Virus record (IMG/VR): IMGVR_UViG_3300025759_000081
Location: 1 to 64,000 of that record
Direction: 5' to 3' (one strand)
DNA length: 64,000 nt
Source of the DNA: a virus
This document shows positions 2,258 to 29,736 of this stretch, in pieces. The stretch's first letter is position 1, and the number at the start of each line of letters is the position of its first letter. The notes beneath the pieces were generated by a model. The model was not told where the DNA came from. It saw only the letters and a program-made list of their open reading frames with translations, and ran no database searches. A program made the position numbers and the translations under genes.

Positions 2258-3741
2258 CCGATGTTGTTAATGTTGAGTTTTTAAATTCAGTACACATGAG
2301 AATTAAAGCGGATTCTGGAGTTCTTCAAGAGCTTTCTGAACGCTTTTCTTTTCGGCCGCAAGGGTATCAATTCAACCCAAGATATAAGGCCCGATATTGG
2401 GATGGGATTATTCGCTTGTTTAATCCACACAAACCTATACTCTATGTTGGATTAGCTTCTCAACTTCAAGATTTTTGCGAGACTCGTGGATATCATCTCA
2501 ATTTGCCCGATGAAATAGCAGACGAAGAAATTGATAATGATTATGGATACGCGCTTGCAAAAGACATCGGTTGTAAGTTTGAACCAAGAGATTACCAAAA
2601 CGAATATATTGTTACAGCGTTGAAAAAGAAAAGATCTCTTTCACTCTCACCAACTTCTTCTGGTAAGTCTCTTATCATTTATTTGATTCAACAACATTAC
2701 TATCAATGCTTTGGGCATAGAGCATTAATTATTGTTCCGACGATTGGATTAGTTCACCAAATGGCAGGTGACTTTAAAGATTATGGTTGTGATCCGGATT
2801 TGATTTATACAATTCAGGGTGGTGTCGATAAAAATACGAAAGCCCCGATTGTAATTAGCACTTGGCAATCTCTTGTTAAACAACCAAAGGATTGGTTTGA
2901 CCAGTTTAGAGTTGTACTTGGTGACGAAGCACATCTATTTCAAGCTAAGTCTCTTACTACGATTATGGAAAAACTTACGCATTGTAACTATAGACATGGG
3001 TTTACCGGCACTCTAAAGTCAGACGAGTCTAAAACCCATCAGCTTGTACTTGAGGGTTGTTTTGGTGAAGTCAATCGCTTCGTATCGACAAAAGATTTAA
3101 TTGATCGTGGTACGATTGCAGACTTTAACGTAAAGGCTATTATATTAAGTCATGCACCCGAAGCAAGAAAACAATTTAAAGATGCACTGAAAGGCATTGA
3201 CACAAAAAAGAAATGGCCGGCTGAGAGACAATTCATTACTAATCACGAGAAGAGAAATCTTTTTATTCGAAATCTTGTTTGGTCTCTTGAAGGACAAAAT
3301 AATCTTATTCTTTTTGATCTCGTCGAAAAGCATGGTAAAGTATTAGAACCTTTGCTGCGCAAAGACGGACGTGAACTTCACTTTATCTATGGTGGAACAT
3401 CTGGCGAGGATCGTGAATACATAAGACAACTGGTTGAAAATGATCCTGAAAAAAAGCATGATATTCTTGCTTCTTATGGTGTCTTTTCTACTGGAGTCAA
3501 TTTAAAAAAACTTGATAACGCTATCTTTGCGTCTAGTTCTAAATCTGAAGTAAAGGTTCTCCAATCAATTGGTAGAACTTTGCGTAAAGGAAATGATGCT
3601 GATAAAGCTACACTTTATGATATCACTGATGATCTTTCTATTAATTCGTATGAAAATTACACTCTTAAACATTTTAGGAAAAGGATTGACATATATGGCA
3701 AGGAAGAATTTCCATACCGAATCTACACTGTGGAAATATAG
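2254..3741 (+). CDS. uvsW: UvsW ATP-dependent DNA/RNA-DNA helicase
   Basis: Superfamily 2 helicase that in T4 unwinds R-loops and branched DNA and switches replication from origin-dependent to recombination-dependent initiation. Seen in order: an N-terminal domain with FNPRYKARYWDGIIRLF, Walker A SPTSSGKS (Lys about 138), the DEAH box GDEAHLF (Asp about 224), motif III GFTGTL, and motif VI QSIGRTLRKG with its arginines. The open frame reaches back to 2206, but ATG at 2254 forms an ATGA overlap with the upstream stop and gives 495 residues, close to T4 UvsW. It is the last gene of the uvsY transcription unit; a 217-base gap follows. Confidence 0.93.
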   Translation: MTDVVNVEFLNSVHMRIKADSGVLQELSERFSFRPQGYQFNPRYKARYWDGIIRLFNPHKPILYVGLASQLQDFCETRGYHLNLPDEIADEEIDNDYGYALAKDIGCKFEPRDYQNEYIVTALKKKRSLSLSPTSSGKSLIIYLIQQHYYQCFGHRALIIVPTIGLVHQMAGDFKDYGCDPDLIYTIQGGVDKNTKAPIVISTWQSLVKQPKDWFDQFRVVLGDEAHLFQAKSLTTIMEKLTHCNYRHGFTGTLKSDESKTHQLVLEGCFGEVNRFVSTKDLIDRGTIADFNVKAIILSHAPEARKQFKDALKGIDTKKKWPAERQFITNHEKRNLFIRNLVWSLEGQNNLILFDLVEKHGKVLEPLLRKDGRELHFIYGGTSGEDREYIRQLVENDPEKKHDILASYGVFSTGVNLKKLDNAIFASSSKSEVKVLQSIGRTLRKGNDADKATLYDITDDLSINSYENYTLKHFRKRIDIYGKEEFPYRIYTVEI

Positions 3742-3902: not shown

Positions 3903-3931
3903 TGTACAATTCTGCTCTATTATGGTAGAAT
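3903..3931 (+). promoter_or_regulatory. Sigma70-like promoter upstream of gene 55
   Basis: TGTACA (3903-3908), a 17-base spacer, TAGAAT (3926-3931), with TGG before the -10 and AGCA after it. It lies in the 217-base gap after uvsW. That gap is AT-rich, has an interrupted palindrome GTAGA-T-TCTAC at 3801-3811, and contains no gene that I can see. Confidence 0.8.
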
Positions 3932-3958
3932 AGCATAGTAATTTTGAGAGGTATTCTT

Positions 3959-4450
3959 ATGGCTAAAAAACGCAACTACGTTAATAACAAAGATCTTTTG
4001 CAAGCATTAATCGACTACAGAAATGAGTGTCGAGAAGCAGAAGAAATTGGCGATACAAAACCAAGAATTCCAGACTACATAGGCAAGTGTATTTTTATGA
4101 TGGCGAATCGTTTAGCTACACGTCCTAATTTTTCTGGTTACTCGTATAAGGAAGATATGATTTCAGATGGGATTGAAAATTGTATTCAATACATCCACAA
4201 CTTTAATCCAGATAAGTCAGAAAATCCTTTTGCTTATTTCACACAAATTATTTGGTACGCTTTCTTACGCCGTATTCAAAAAGAAAAAAAGCAAATGTAT
4301 ATTAAGTTCAAAGCTTCACAAAATATGTTTACAGACTTAGACGTTATTGACTCAGATGATCATGCTATGATAATGAATCAACAACCCGAATACATTAGCG
4401 AGTTTATTAGTGAGTTTGAAGAAAAAGTAATGAAAAAGAAGAAAGACTAG
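3959..4450 (+). CDS. 55: Late-transcription sigma factor gp55
   Basis: A 164-residue homologue of T4 gp55, the minimal sigma factor that binds host RNA polymerase and recognises TATAAATA late promoters. Matching elements are YVNNKDLLQALIDYR (T4: YNYVNNKELLQAIIDWK), NFSGYSYKEDMISDGIENCI, IHNFNPDKSENPFAYFTQI, and RRIQKEKKQM. The frame opens at a TTG at 3944, but ATG at 3959 is spaced correctly from GAGAGG and begins the conserved region. The C-terminal end is acidic, then lysine-rich. In T4 the gp55 C-terminus contacts the clamp gp45, which is also encoded here. It lies directly before gene 47. Confidence 0.93.
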   Translation: MAKKRNYVNNKDLLQALIDYRNECREAEEIGDTKPRIPDYIGKCIFMMANRLATRPNFSGYSYKEDMISDGIENCIQYIHNFNPDKSENPFAYFTQIIWYAFLRRIQKEKKQMYIKFKASQNMFTDLDVIDSDDHAMIMNQQPEYISEFISEFEEKVMKKKKD

Positions 4451-24481: not shown

Positions 24482-25063
24482 ATGTCAAGCATTAATGGTA
24501 AAATTTTACCAGACGTAGTTTTTAAAACTCGTGTACGTGATGAGTCAATTAGTGGTGACAACCCATATCGTTGGGAAGATGTAACAACAGAAGATCTTTT
24601 TGGAAAAAAAAGAATTGTTGTGTTTAGTCTTCCTGGCGCGTTTACTCCTACTTGCTCAACCTTTCAAGTACCTGGTTTCGAAGAAGCATACGAAGAAATT
24701 AAGTCAAATTTCGTAGATGATATCTATTGTGTCTCAGTTAACGACGCATTTGTCATGAACGCTTGGGCGAAAGCACAGGGCGTCAAAAACATTAAAATGG
24801 TACCTGACGGCTCTGGAAAATTCACCGAAGCACTTGGAATGCTCGTTGATAAAGACAATCTTGGATTTGGTAAAAGATCTTGGAGATACGCCGCTGTTAT
24901 TACAGACAGCGTTGTCGAAAAAGAATTCGTAGAGCCAGGATTTATGGATAATTGTCCAGAAGATCCTTATGGTGAAACAAGTCCAGAAACGGTGTTGACT
25001 TATTTAAAAGAAGTTGCTTTTCGTTTCGAAGCTAAAAGCAAAGAAGGTGAAAAAGCTGCGTGA
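24482..25063 (+). CDS. Peroxiredoxin (Prx5/AhpE-like thioredoxin fold)
   Basis: A 193-residue thiol peroxidase. The peroxidatic motif is SLPGAFTPTCSTFQVPGF with catalytic Cys58, and the segment CVSVNDAFVMNAWAKAQG is characteristic of the Prx5 group. It ends with an extended C-terminus rich in Glu and Lys. It has a GGAG ribosome binding site, follows hsp20 by 17 bases and shares its transcript, which ends at the terminator just downstream. It probably protects the infected cell or virion assembly from peroxide and looks like a host-derived auxiliary gene. Confidence 0.92.
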   Translation: MSSINGKILPDVVFKTRVRDESISGDNPYRWEDVTTEDLFGKKRIVVFSLPGAFTPTCSTFQVPGFEEAYEEIKSNFVDDIYCVSVNDAFVMNAWAKAQGVKNIKMVPDGSGKFTEALGMLVDKDNLGFGKRSWRYAAVITDSVVEKEFVEPGFMDNCPEDPYGETSPETVLTYLKEVAFRFEAKSKEGEKAA

Positions 25064-25064
25064 A

Positions 25065-25092
25065 CAAAAAGGGACCGAAAGGTCCCTTTTTT
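25065..25092. terminator. Bidirectional intrinsic terminator
   Basis: AAAAA-GGGACC (25070-25075), a GAAA tetraloop, GGTCCC (25080-25085) and TTTTTTT. The A tract on the left makes it work for the minus strand as well. It lies exactly between the convergent peroxiredoxin (stop 25063) and tape-measure (stop 25092) genes. Confidence 0.93.
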
Positions 25093-26999
25093 TAATCTGA
25101 GCCCGCAGTTAATATAAGAGTTTTAGATCTTCCACCACCGCCACCACCACCACCTACAACACTCGATGCTATACTAGTAGTTGAGCCTTTCGAAGCATTA
25201 ACATGTTGAACGCTTGTGCCACCAACCGCAGTTGAAGAATCAATGTAAGTAAATCCTTGACCTCGGCCGAGGTAAGCGGGGTGTTGCCTAGCCGTTTCGA
25301 TTCGTTCCAGCATTTCAAGTGCCTGATTCTCTCTGTCAGCCAAGCGATCCAAACTATTTTGGCCAAAAAGTGCTTTGACATTTTCAACAATACCTTTTGG
25401 CGATTCATAAATAAAATCACGTTCTGATAATTTACCTGCAGAATTGGCTATTCTGTCTTGGATAACTTGTCGAATAGTTTCAATCTCTGCTTCTAATTCT
25501 GTGTTCCTAGCAACAAATTCAGCTTCTATTTCAGCCATCTCTATTGCACTCAGATCTCTTTCATCTACAAACCCTCCACCGGGCATTGGAGTTCTAAAAC
25601 TAGGACCAGATTTTTGTCTATTTGCTAACGTCTGTTTAGCCTTTGCGTATTGTTCTCCTATTTCTTGATTTGTGTCAGATTCTAATTGACTGTTATCTAT
25701 TTCATCATGTTTATACGCAGCTCGTCTTTCAAGATTTGCTCGCATTTCCGGTGACATTTCTTTACCATTGCGCGCATAGTCATCTAACATTTTTTGCGCC
25801 GCGTCACGGTCGGCTTCTTTCCTAGCTCTAGCATCTGCTTGTTCTTGTAGTCTAGCTGCTTTTTCAGCGAGGGCTTGCAGAGCTGCTTCTTCGTTTGATC
25901 TACCAATTACTTCAGCAACTTTTCTTGTTATTCCAACTGCTCCACCAATAATAAGCCCAGCAAGAGCTCCTTTAGGACCAAATAAAGAACCAAACGTAAG
26001 TGCACCTCCTGCCGCAGCTGCAAGTATACCACCAGTATCTACTACTTCACTTGCTGCAATTTCTTCAGGAGACATGTTTGCAGCTTCTGCTGCAATAAAC
26101 TCTGCAATCTCATCACCATAAGCCATAACACCTACACCAGCAGCTGCTAATAATGCGCGGGCAATAGCGAATCCTTTCATTTTATTTTTGGTAGGGTTTC
26201 CATCTGGATCTGCGTCGGTTTGAGGCACTTGAGGCACAGTAGGTGGTAGACCTCCACGATCGAAAAGTCCTCGTACAGCGCCAGATGCAACGCCAGCTGC
26301 AGCGCCACGCGCAATACCACCTGAGAGGAGATCGGCGCCTAGTCCTGCAGCGCCAATCCCAAGTAATACTCCAGCTGGACTTTTTATGAATTCTGTAATT
26401 GCAGTAAGAGCTTCTGGAACCTTTTCAGCGAATTGAACAAAAGACGAACCAACCGCAGACCAATCAACTTTCTTAAAAGTTTCAATCATACTATCTTCAA
26501 ACTCAGTGAATGCTCCATTAGATTTTTCGTCGATAAAACCTTTCACAAAATTATAAGCTAAGAACATACCACCACCAGCCATTGCAAGATTTTTCATCAT
26601 ATTACCACTAGGTAAAATAGATTTAAGTAAGCTAGTTACTCCACCGCTTTCTGTTTTCTCTTTTCTTGTTTTTTGAGAGGTATCTTCTGAAACTGAATTC
26701 GTTGATTCTGAAGCGTCTGGCGCGACCTGTTTAAGCGCTTCTTCGTTTTTTTGTTGTTCTAATAGCTCTTTATTCATATTACCCATTTTGTCAAAATAAT
26801 CTTTTTGACCGTCAAGGGCTGTAGCTATTCGATTAAACACTCCGTCGAATTTTGCTAAATCTGCGCGAATGTTTTTTAAACTGTGGGTTCTGCCGTCGGT
26901 ACGAAGTAGCTTGCCTTCTTTTTCTAGCGTATCGATGATAGCTTGAGTTTGAGGAGACAATTGTGATTGCTCTTTTCGATCTTCTCGTTTAGATGGCAT
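25092..26999 (-). CDS. 29: Tape measure / baseplate hub protein, gp29-like
   Basis: A 635-residue protein (T4 gp29: 590). It starts with a helical, charged region (about 1-125). Several long hydrophobic Gly/Ala-rich segments follow (for example GVLLGIGAAGLGADLLSGG and GGILAAAAGGALTFGSLFG), then a long charged coiled coil, as in tail tape measures. The C-terminus has a run of eight glycines (VVGGGGGGGGRSK). Sequence similarity to T4 gp29 is not obvious to me; the call rests on size, segment order and position after gp26/gp51. It ends at the bidirectional terminator. Confidence 0.7.
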   Translation of the reverse strand: MPSKREDRKEQSQLSPQTQAIIDTLEKEGKLLRTDGRTHSLKNIRADLAKFDGVFNRIATALDGQKDYFDKMGNMNKELLEQQKNEEALKQVAPDASESTNSVSEDTSQKTRKEKTESGGVTSLLKSILPSGNMMKNLAMAGGGMFLAYNFVKGFIDEKSNGAFTEFEDSMIETFKKVDWSAVGSSFVQFAEKVPEALTAITEFIKSPAGVLLGIGAAGLGADLLSGGIARGAAAGVASGAVRGLFDRGGLPPTVPQVPQTDADPDGNPTKNKMKGFAIARALLAAAGVGVMAYGDEIAEFIAAEAANMSPEEIAASEVVDTGGILAAAAGGALTFGSLFGPKGALAGLIIGGAVGITRKVAEVIGRSNEEAALQALAEKAARLQEQADARARKEADRDAAQKMLDDYARNGKEMSPEMRANLERRAAYKHDEIDNSQLESDTNQEIGEQYAKAKQTLANRQKSGPSFRTPMPGGGFVDERDLSAIEMAEIEAEFVARNTELEAEIETIRQVIQDRIANSAGKLSERDFIYESPKGIVENVKALFGQNSLDRLADRENQALEMLERIETARQHPAYLGRGQGFTYIDSSTAVGGTSVQHVNASKGSTTSIASSVVGGGGGGGGRSKTLILTAGSD

Positions 27000-27001
27000 T
27001 T

Positions 27002-27169
27002 TTATTTGCTCTTTTCGTTTTGTTCTTCTATAAAGTTAATTAGCATTTTAAAATAAAGATCACGTTCATAAGGCATTAAACTTTCTATATCACTTATTGA
27101 GTATTTATGGTGCTGTGCCAATGCGAACACAATTTGATAGTAATCGCCGAGACTAAGATGGCACAGCAT
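27002..27169 (-). CDS. 51: gp51-like baseplate hub chaperone, -1 frame of gene 26
   Basis: A 55-residue reading frame not covered by longer genes. It begins with ATG in a TAATG overlap with the gene 26 stop and ends two bases before the gene 29-like start region. The sequence contains LGDYYQIVFALAQHHKYS and IESLMPYERDLYFKMLINF, the type of helix-YERD-helix that occurs in tail-assembly chaperone C-terminal parts. It can be made alone, or as a gp26 fusion if ribosomes shift at the T TTT TTT site that precedes it. T4 genes 26 and 51 are also neighbours, so I propose gene 51. Confidence 0.65.
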   Translation of the reverse strand: MLCHLSLGDYYQIVFALAQHHKYSISDIESLMPYERDLYFKMLINFIEEQNEKSK

Positions 27170-27870
27170 TACATAAAAAAACTGCGCATACCTTCTAGTA
27201 CAAACACTTGTTCTTTATTTTCCTTATTAGTATAATGCATTTCGTGTCGAAGTCTTGGCATTGTTTCAAAAAAATCTTGAATACCTTTAACTACTTCACC
27301 TGACATGCCATCCATAAAATTATGAATTTCATCTTCACTATAATCTTTAAAATCGTAAACGTCTTCATCAGACGCAAGTTTGTCTAAGCAAGAAACCATT
27401 ATGTAATAATTTGACAATGGGTCGTTTGAATCATAAGTAGCAACTTGAAGAAATTCATCAATTGATGGATACTTAAGAAACAAATAAAAATCATCGTTTA
27501 TTTTAACTTTATTTGTATGACTTGGATTTCGTGTTATAGTAATATTTTCAATATCAATTTCAAGATCTACTTTTTCGTCTGTATCAGGATCTCTTATAGA
27601 AAAATTGATTGCGTTATCTATAGACCTAGCTCTTAAACAAAGCATAATATATTCTAGATCAAACATTGGTAAATCACCAATGTCCTTTCCAACTAAGCAA
27701 TTATTTACGATTTGTTTCGCGGCAAGGATTTCTTGCTCAATATCATTTGATTCTTGAGCAATTAAAAGAATTTTTTCTTCTTTAACACTAAAGGGCCTGT
27801 ATTTAATCTTCTCTCCGGTTGATGGTAATTCCAACTCAAAAAGTGGAAGATCGATTTTTGGTAAAACCAT
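27169..27870 (-). CDS. 26: gp26-like baseplate hub assembly protein
   Basis: A 233-residue protein (T4 gp26: 208) of the T4 baseplate gp26 family. It starts MVLPKIDLPLFELELPSTGEKIKYRPF, with the RPF-VKEEK motif common in the family, followed by helical segments IVNNCLVGKDIGDLPMFDLEYI and LKYPSIDEFLQVATYD. It takes part in hub assembly. An AGGAG ribosome binding site precedes the ATG. The gene ends in the slippery T tract described separately. Confidence 0.85.
   Translation of the reverse strand: MVLPKIDLPLFELELPSTGEKIKYRPFSVKEEKILLIAQESNDIEQEILAAKQIVNNCLVGKDIGDLPMFDLEYIMLCLRARSIDNAINFSIRDPDTDEKVDLEIDIENITITRNPSHTNKVKINDDFYLFLKYPSIDEFLQVATYDSNDPLSNYYIMVSCLDKLASDEDVYDFKDYSEDEIHNFMDGMSGEVVKGIQDFFETMPRLRHEMHYTNKENKEQVFVLEGMRSFFM
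27175..27181 (-). promoter_or_regulatory. T TTT TTT slippery heptamer, candidate -1 frameshift site
   Basis: Near the 3' end of gene 26, in its reading frame, the minus strand reads AG T TTT TTT ATG TAA TG. The heptamer T TTT TTT is a classical -1 slippery sequence. A shift would bypass the TAA and continue as Y-V-M-L-C-H into the 55-codon frame, adding 57 residues. Confidence 0.55.
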
Positions 27871-29274: not shown

Positions 29275-29736
29275 CTACTTAATCCCTAATTCGTGTTCTG
29301 TATATATTGCAAATTCCCAACCTTTACTTTCACAAAATTGTCTAGCTGCTTTCCACTTAGCTTCATTGACTCCCCACGTTTTAACCTCGTTCAAATATCT
29401 TCTCGATATTCTTCCAGATTTCGTAGCATTTTTTTTACTCACATCTGGCGGTTTAGTCTGAGCTTTAGGTTTAATTTCAATCATAATTGTTTTTGGGACA
29501 CTAGTTTTTTTATCTCTTACATGGACAATTACATCAGGAAAATATCTGTGTGACTTTCCATCGATTGGTGATCTATATGGAACGATCACTTCTTCAGATT
29601 GCCACCAAATAACATCCGGATGCTTGTCTACATGACGAAAAAATTTAAACTCCCAAAGGGACCTATAAATTATTTTTGTAGGATCTCCTTTGTACTTTCC
29701 AGGGTTTTCTGGTCGAAATCTACCTTTGTATGCCAT
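29275..29736 (-). CDS. 4: gp4 head completion nuclease-like protein
   Basis: A 153-residue protein (T4 gp4: 150) needed to finish filled heads. The pattern PENPGKYKGDPTKIIYRSLWEFKFF, WWQSEEVIVPY, DGKSHRYFPDVIV and TIMIEIKPK corresponds to a restriction-like nuclease fold with the PD-(D/E)XK elements FPD and EIKPK. The C-terminus WEFAIYTEHEL also fits. It is the first gene of the minus-strand operon that runs through 54, 26, 51 and 29. Confidence 0.9.
   Translation of the reverse strand: MAYKGRFRPENPGKYKGDPTKIIYRSLWEFKFFRHVDKHPDVIWWQSEEVIVPYRSPIDGKSHRYFPDVIVHVRDKKTSVPKTIMIEIKPKAQTKPPDVSKKNATKSGRISRRYLNEVKTWGVNEAKWKAARQFCESKGWEFAIYTEHELGIK

Follow-up and report, generated by a model that had tools for sequence, protein, structure and literature searches.

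A probable programmed −1 ribosomal frameshift site for the long tail assembly chaperone of a T4-superfamily phage

The window analysed here comprises 64,000 nucleotides of a 68,301-base IMG/VR record (IMGVR_UViG_3300025759_000081) of a marine T4-like virus. It contains a T4-type tail module in which tube-like, gp2-like and gp4-like genes lie upstream of a junction between a gp26-like gene and a short gp51-like frame, with gp48-like and gp53-like genes on the opposite strand; all features of the junction itself are on the minus strand. The gp26-like gene ends CTA GAA GGT ATG CGC AGT TTT TTT ATG TAA, and a single sense codon separates the heptamer T TTT TTT from the stop TAA (27171-27169). The final A of this stop is the A of the ATG that opens a 55-codon frame (a TAATG overlap). 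The stop of that frame is followed, after two bases, by the start of a 635-codon gene at 26999. The features are as follows.

27169..27870, minus strand: gp26-like gene of 233 codons, short chaperone form (TAC-N, the 'G' role), assigned from PF12322 and phrog_150
27191..27196, minus strand: SD-like AGAAGG, 9 nt 5′ of the heptamer, a possible stimulator judged from anti-SD pairing
27175..27181, minus strand: slippery heptamer T TTT TTT (U UUU UUU), in frame, identified from sequence, conservation and the codon test
27169..27174, minus strand: spacer ATGTAA, six bases made up of the last gp26 codon and the stop, read from the sequence
27159..27168, minus strand: 5′ arm of a stem-loop, TGCTGTGCCA, from folding energy and covariation
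27111..27120, minus strand: 3′ arm of the stem-loop, TGGCACAGCA, from folding energy and covariation; its 10 bases pair with the 5′ arm without a mismatch
27002..27169, minus strand: gp51-like frame of 55 codons, −1 relative to gene 26 (the 'T' role), assigned from phrog_634
25092..26999, minus strand: gene of 635 codons, presumed tape-measure protein, from position and annotation in relatives

The gp26-like protein matches PF12322 over residues 11-232 (E 1.6e-52; 178.8 bits against a gathering cut-off of 24.5) and, in the profile search, phrog_150 (E 4.5e-57). Its AlphaFold model has a pLDDT of 87. Foldseek matches in the viral library are mainly annotated gp26-like baseplate hub proteins; the top PDB matches include the HK97 chaperone 2ob9, at a non-significant E of about 1.8, and a chaperone fold is weakly suggested by the model. 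Sequence searches against solved structures gave chance matches only. The short frame matches phrog_634, 'baseplate hub assembly catalyst', over residues 1-55 (E 1.2e-21), and our own profile shows its domain and the C-terminus of T4 gp51 to be homologues; no match was found for the structure model of this domain. Tape measures are annotated behind the gene pair in HTVC008M, Cr30 and Rhizobium phage I1_18. The original prediction that a tape measure comes next agrees with the position of the gene and with the annotation of these relatives; similarity searches with the 635-codon gene revealed no significant similarity to any known tape measure. In HTVC008M and other clades (loci L063, L067, L072, L078 and L083, the last at 3903-4235) about 200-350 bases lie between the extension and a large tape-measure ORF; a small uncharacterised gene fills this gap in Pelagibacter phage HTVC008M. 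We note two further genes of the window. A peroxiredoxin-like gene (24482-25063, plus strand; phrog_2281, E 1.4e-66) adjoins the tail module and is a possible host-derived metabolic gene. For the head-closure (gp4-like) protein (29275-29736, minus strand) there is also a match to the N-terminal domain of the TnsA endonuclease (PF08722, E 6e-24): a head-completion protein with a nuclease-like fold.

The in-frame heptamer that the original prediction had placed at the end of gene 26 is confirmed at 27181-27175, and a shift of −1 does pass the stop and enter the 55-codon frame (27169-27002). The junction peptide had been given correctly as MRSFF-YVMLC; the predicted fusion is 289 residues long and consists of gp26 residues 1-232, Tyr-Val and the 55 residues of the second frame. 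As read from the sequence, the junction combines heptamer, six-base spacer and stem-loop in the way of a canonical bacterial −1 site.

The original prediction was staked on conservation of the T run, and the run is kept. Among 133 distinct junctions, obtained after removal of duplicates from IMG/VR gp26 relatives and 15 named phage records, T TTT TT(C/T/A) occurs in frame at the gp26 end in 130 (T TTT TTC in 84, T TTT TTT in 37 and T TTT TTA in nine), and in 126 of the 130 it stands exactly two codons before the stop. The three others comprise L007, with G TTT TTT, and L052 and L181, which were set aside for broken reading frames that are probable sequence errors. The slippery run of L181, a Stenotrophomonas phage, is one T shorter (at about position 3247) than that of its near-identical sister L180, shifting the frame; the missing T is probably a sequencing error in the homopolymer, failing which the site varies naturally here. 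Behind every one of the 130 heptamers the −1 frame stays open for 53-86 codons (53-66 in 129 cases); these extensions align as a single protein family with invariant residues (alignment A3).

One alternative is that the 55-residue protein is a separate gp51 translated by coupling at the TAATG, the T run being a by-product of Phe-Phe in AT-rich DNA. The ATG does overlap the gp26 stop here, Phe-Phe is conserved even in T4 gp26, and the domain is annotated as a free-standing 'gp51/baseplate hub assembly catalyst' in S-PM2, HTVC008M, phiM7 and others. The frame had been called overlooked; given these annotations the description fits it as part of a fusion and does not fit it alone. The start codon is not conserved, however: the position of the ATG is occupied by ACG, GCG or GGC in 7 of 31 aligned rows of the window clade and by ATG or GTG in the other 24 (alignment A1). 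Moreover, in 43 of the 130 extensions (roughly 60 codons each) the first ATG, GTG or TTG is at least 12 codons in or is absent, so that a complete free-standing protein is impossible there by ordinary initiation. Separate translation at the TAATG, which the original prediction had also allowed, is possible in this phage and is not the general mechanism, many relatives having no start codon there.

Codon choice bears on the T run itself. When the proteins are clustered at 80% identity, all 82 clusters have TTT as the first Phe codon of the heptamer, whereas the remaining Phe codons of the gene are 639 TTT to 267 TTC (P about 1e-17, a nominal value, as related clusters were treated as independent); the codon before Phe-Phe ends in T in 81 of the 82. 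GC-rich phages (gp26 of 51-59% GC) keep GAT TTT TT(C/T) even though Phe is mostly TTC elsewhere in the gene, with TTT to TTC ratios of 0:12 in ACP17 and 1:13 in pf16. The sampled T4-type gp26 genes, which have no −1 domain behind them, encode Phe-Phe as TTC TTT after GAG or GAA, or as GAG TTT TTT, with no T7 run; this control set is small, consisting of T4, records almost identical to it and a single one at 58% identity. A chance T run in AT-rich DNA is ruled out by the codon tests and the GC-rich phages, and conserved Phe-Phe as sole cause by the T4-type genes, where Phe-Phe occurs without the run. With the selected RNA stem described below also counting against it, we regard a separate gp51 with an incidental T run as very unlikely.

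The original prediction did not include the stem-loop that begins six bases 3′ of the heptamer. Its 10-bp stem (27168-27159 with 27120-27111) closes a 38-base loop and has a folding energy of −25.4 kcal/mol (z −4.4), a stability reached by none of 200 shuffles. In 29 distinct relatives of the window clade an 11-pair stem, the ten pairs plus one outer pair, is 88.4% paired, and pairing is only 22-51% when the partner is slid by one to three bases. Both-sided (compensatory) changes at three stem pairs number 22 cells, compared with 11.0 ± 2.1 in shuffles, and the covariation score of the stem was reached by none of 500 shuffles. In one telling case, a 5′ codon switches between TGC (Cys) and AGC (Ser) in step with a synonymous third-base change (GCA or GCT) in an Ala codon on the 3′ side. 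Judged by these sequence comparisons, the RNA stem is under selection. No claim is made for an inner helix, where pairing is much weaker than in the outer one.

Across the junctions the RNA 3′ of the heptamer is more stable than its shuffles (mean z −2.96; controls about −0.3). Relative to random synonymous recodings of the extension, the region from +5 to +70 has a mean z of −2.56, with 66% below −2 (controls about −0.2; p 5e-12). Hairpins of other sequence occupy the same place in S-PM2 (GTTCTATAATAAT...ATTATTATAGAAC) and in another cyanophage-like group (ATGGCTCA...TGAGTCAT). A strong downstream hairpin was not found in some clades, for example L062, L071, L073 and L091; the structure is present here and weak or absent in such clades. 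Downstream stimulatory RNA structures are common, not universal, at frameshift sites of this kind. On the 5′ side, mean anti-SD pairing in the 82 clusters peaks about 15 nt before the heptamer. The AGAAGG of the window is a possible frameshift stimulator by its sequence. It overlaps a conserved Gly codon at which codon choice has no clear bias, and a selected SD-like stimulator is not claimed, being inseparable from the conserved glycine; T4 gp26 also has AGAGG there.

A fusion could also arise if transcriptional slippage on the T7 run altered the length of the mRNA. The run is a homopolymer, and the L181 run lacks one T relative to its sister, possibly through sequencing error. At most loci, however, the site is TTTTTTC, a six-T run only, and runs of seven bases or fewer are short for transcriptional slippage. 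Ribosomal −1 sites, moreover, typically use a stem like this one, covarying and set at a fixed short distance, and we consider slippage of the polymerase extremely improbable.

T4 itself offers a natural comparison. Profiles of the N domain and of the −1 domain were built solely from frameshift loci. The N-domain (gp26) profile matches both T4 gp26 (E 4.9e-24) and T4 gp51 (E 1.6e-8); the −1-domain profile matches T4 gp51 (E 3.2e-7) and not T4 gp26. T4 gp51 thus has both domains and gp26 the first only, making gp51 the fused equivalent of the frameshift product and gp26 that of the short product. Genes 26 and 51 are divergently transcribed in T4, and 44RR has the same gene plan. From these sequence matches, T4 seems to have two genes where the present phage would use a frameshift. 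In Enterobacter phage EC-F2 (L190, 3001-4294) a fused gp51-type gene and a short gp26-type gene stand in tandem, which is intermediate between the frameshift arrangement and T4's divergent pair.

Taken together, we consider it highly probable that the junction is a programmed −1 ribosomal frameshift site making the long tail assembly chaperone of a T4-superfamily phage. The sequence basis is heptamer conservation, the frame, the extension, the covarying RNA structure and the natural fusion in T4 gp51; these, with the missing start codons, support the shift between gp26-like and gp51-like frames that had originally been proposed. That ribosomes shift here, how often they do so and what both products do, we infer. 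Most ribosomes would end at the gp26 stop and release the 233-residue short form. A minority, on U UUU UUU, would pause at the stem-loop six bases 3′ and slip back by one base with both phenylalanine tRNAs, each of which could re-pair perfectly. The UAA would then be bypassed and a 57-residue C-terminal extension added, giving the gp26-51 fusion of 289 residues. If the pair works as gpG/gpGT do in lambda, the tape measure would be coated by numerous short copies and a few long ones, with the tube protein recruited through the C-terminal domain of the long form. The frameshift could be accompanied by coupled re-initiation at the TAATG, yielding some free C-terminal domain; this adds to the fusion, and our confidences in the two overlap. 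The ATG or GTG retained at the overlap in 24 clade rows would permit it, but the start lies inside the spacer and stem, and a distance of 21 bases between it and the SD-like AGAAGG is too great for ordinary initiation. We also know of no free T product in lambda-type systems, and such a second product is rather unlikely.

The same arrangement may account for oddities in other T4 relatives. In Sullivan et al. 2010 (PMC3037559), Aeh1 is reported as the only phage that lacks gp51, and cyanophage gp51 as lacking its first ~200 residues, with about 20% of the usual length. Aeromonas phage Aeh1 has GAT TTT TTC GAC TGA followed by an unannotated 57-codon −1 extension (L188, 2283-2456), and both the shortness of cyanophage gp51 and the apparent absence from Aeh1 are explained by the frameshift. 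In Aeromonas phage AS-szw (L094) the extension region is likewise unannotated. A joined CDS was not found at the gp26/gp51 junction in the named phages whose annotation was examined, and the annotation of hundreds of genomes could therefore be corrected. As a tentative wider reading, to which we give rather less than even credence, the frameshift would be widespread and possibly ancestral in the T4 superfamily and obligatory where no start codon exists, driven by stem-loops that were exchanged for others from clade to clade around a fixed heptamer; it would have been lost in the subgroup of T4 itself, where duplication gave gene 26 and a fused gene 51. On this reading neither the RNA element nor its turnover would have been reported before.

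The frameshift principle in T4-like phages is already published and is not new. Vladimirov, Gautam and Davidson (Virology 2022, 566:9-15) identified T4-like tail assembly chaperones, as cited in the PRFect paper (PMC10885494) and that on phage Adele (PMC12846349). On the account of those two texts the pair is the same one, gp26/gp51 as TAC-N/TAC-NC, and the unification of G/GT with T4 was already proposed there; the unification put forward in the original prediction is not a new idea. The PRFect paper credits that work with the finding that some T4-like phages encode the short and the fused long form in two genes and do not frameshift, and the Adele paper cites it for poly-T slippery sequences in T4-like TAC-N genes. 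The clade of the present phage differs from the phages described in these citations in being known here only from metagenomic contigs. In what the two texts say of that work no covarying downstream stem-loop is mentioned; the covarying RNA element may be unreported, and the present analysis may add to that work in the breadth of its survey, in the argument from missing start codons and in the covarying stem-loop with its turnover. Poly-T GTTTTT at the TAC-N end with a −1 extension in all genomes is also described for Vandenendeviridae and Andersonviridae (phage Adele, PMC12846349), which are other phage families than that of the present phage. In lambda, gpG/gpGT are made by a −1 frameshift near the end of the first gene (reviewed in PMC5009743). 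Both systems would encode a short and a frameshift-extended chaperone, in lambda directly before the tape measure and here directly before the presumed one, a likeness of layout; here the heptamer is U UUU UUN and not that of lambda, and the stop comes one codon later. The same 2016 review (PMC5009743) lists T4 as an exception to the chaperone frameshift. T4 gp26 is the N domain and T4 gp51 the N domain and −1 domain in one chain, encoded by two separate divergent genes without a slippery run. Marine, cyanobacterial, vibrio and aeromonas relatives of T4 bear all the sequence marks of the chaperone frameshift, and T4 has the same two products from separate genes.
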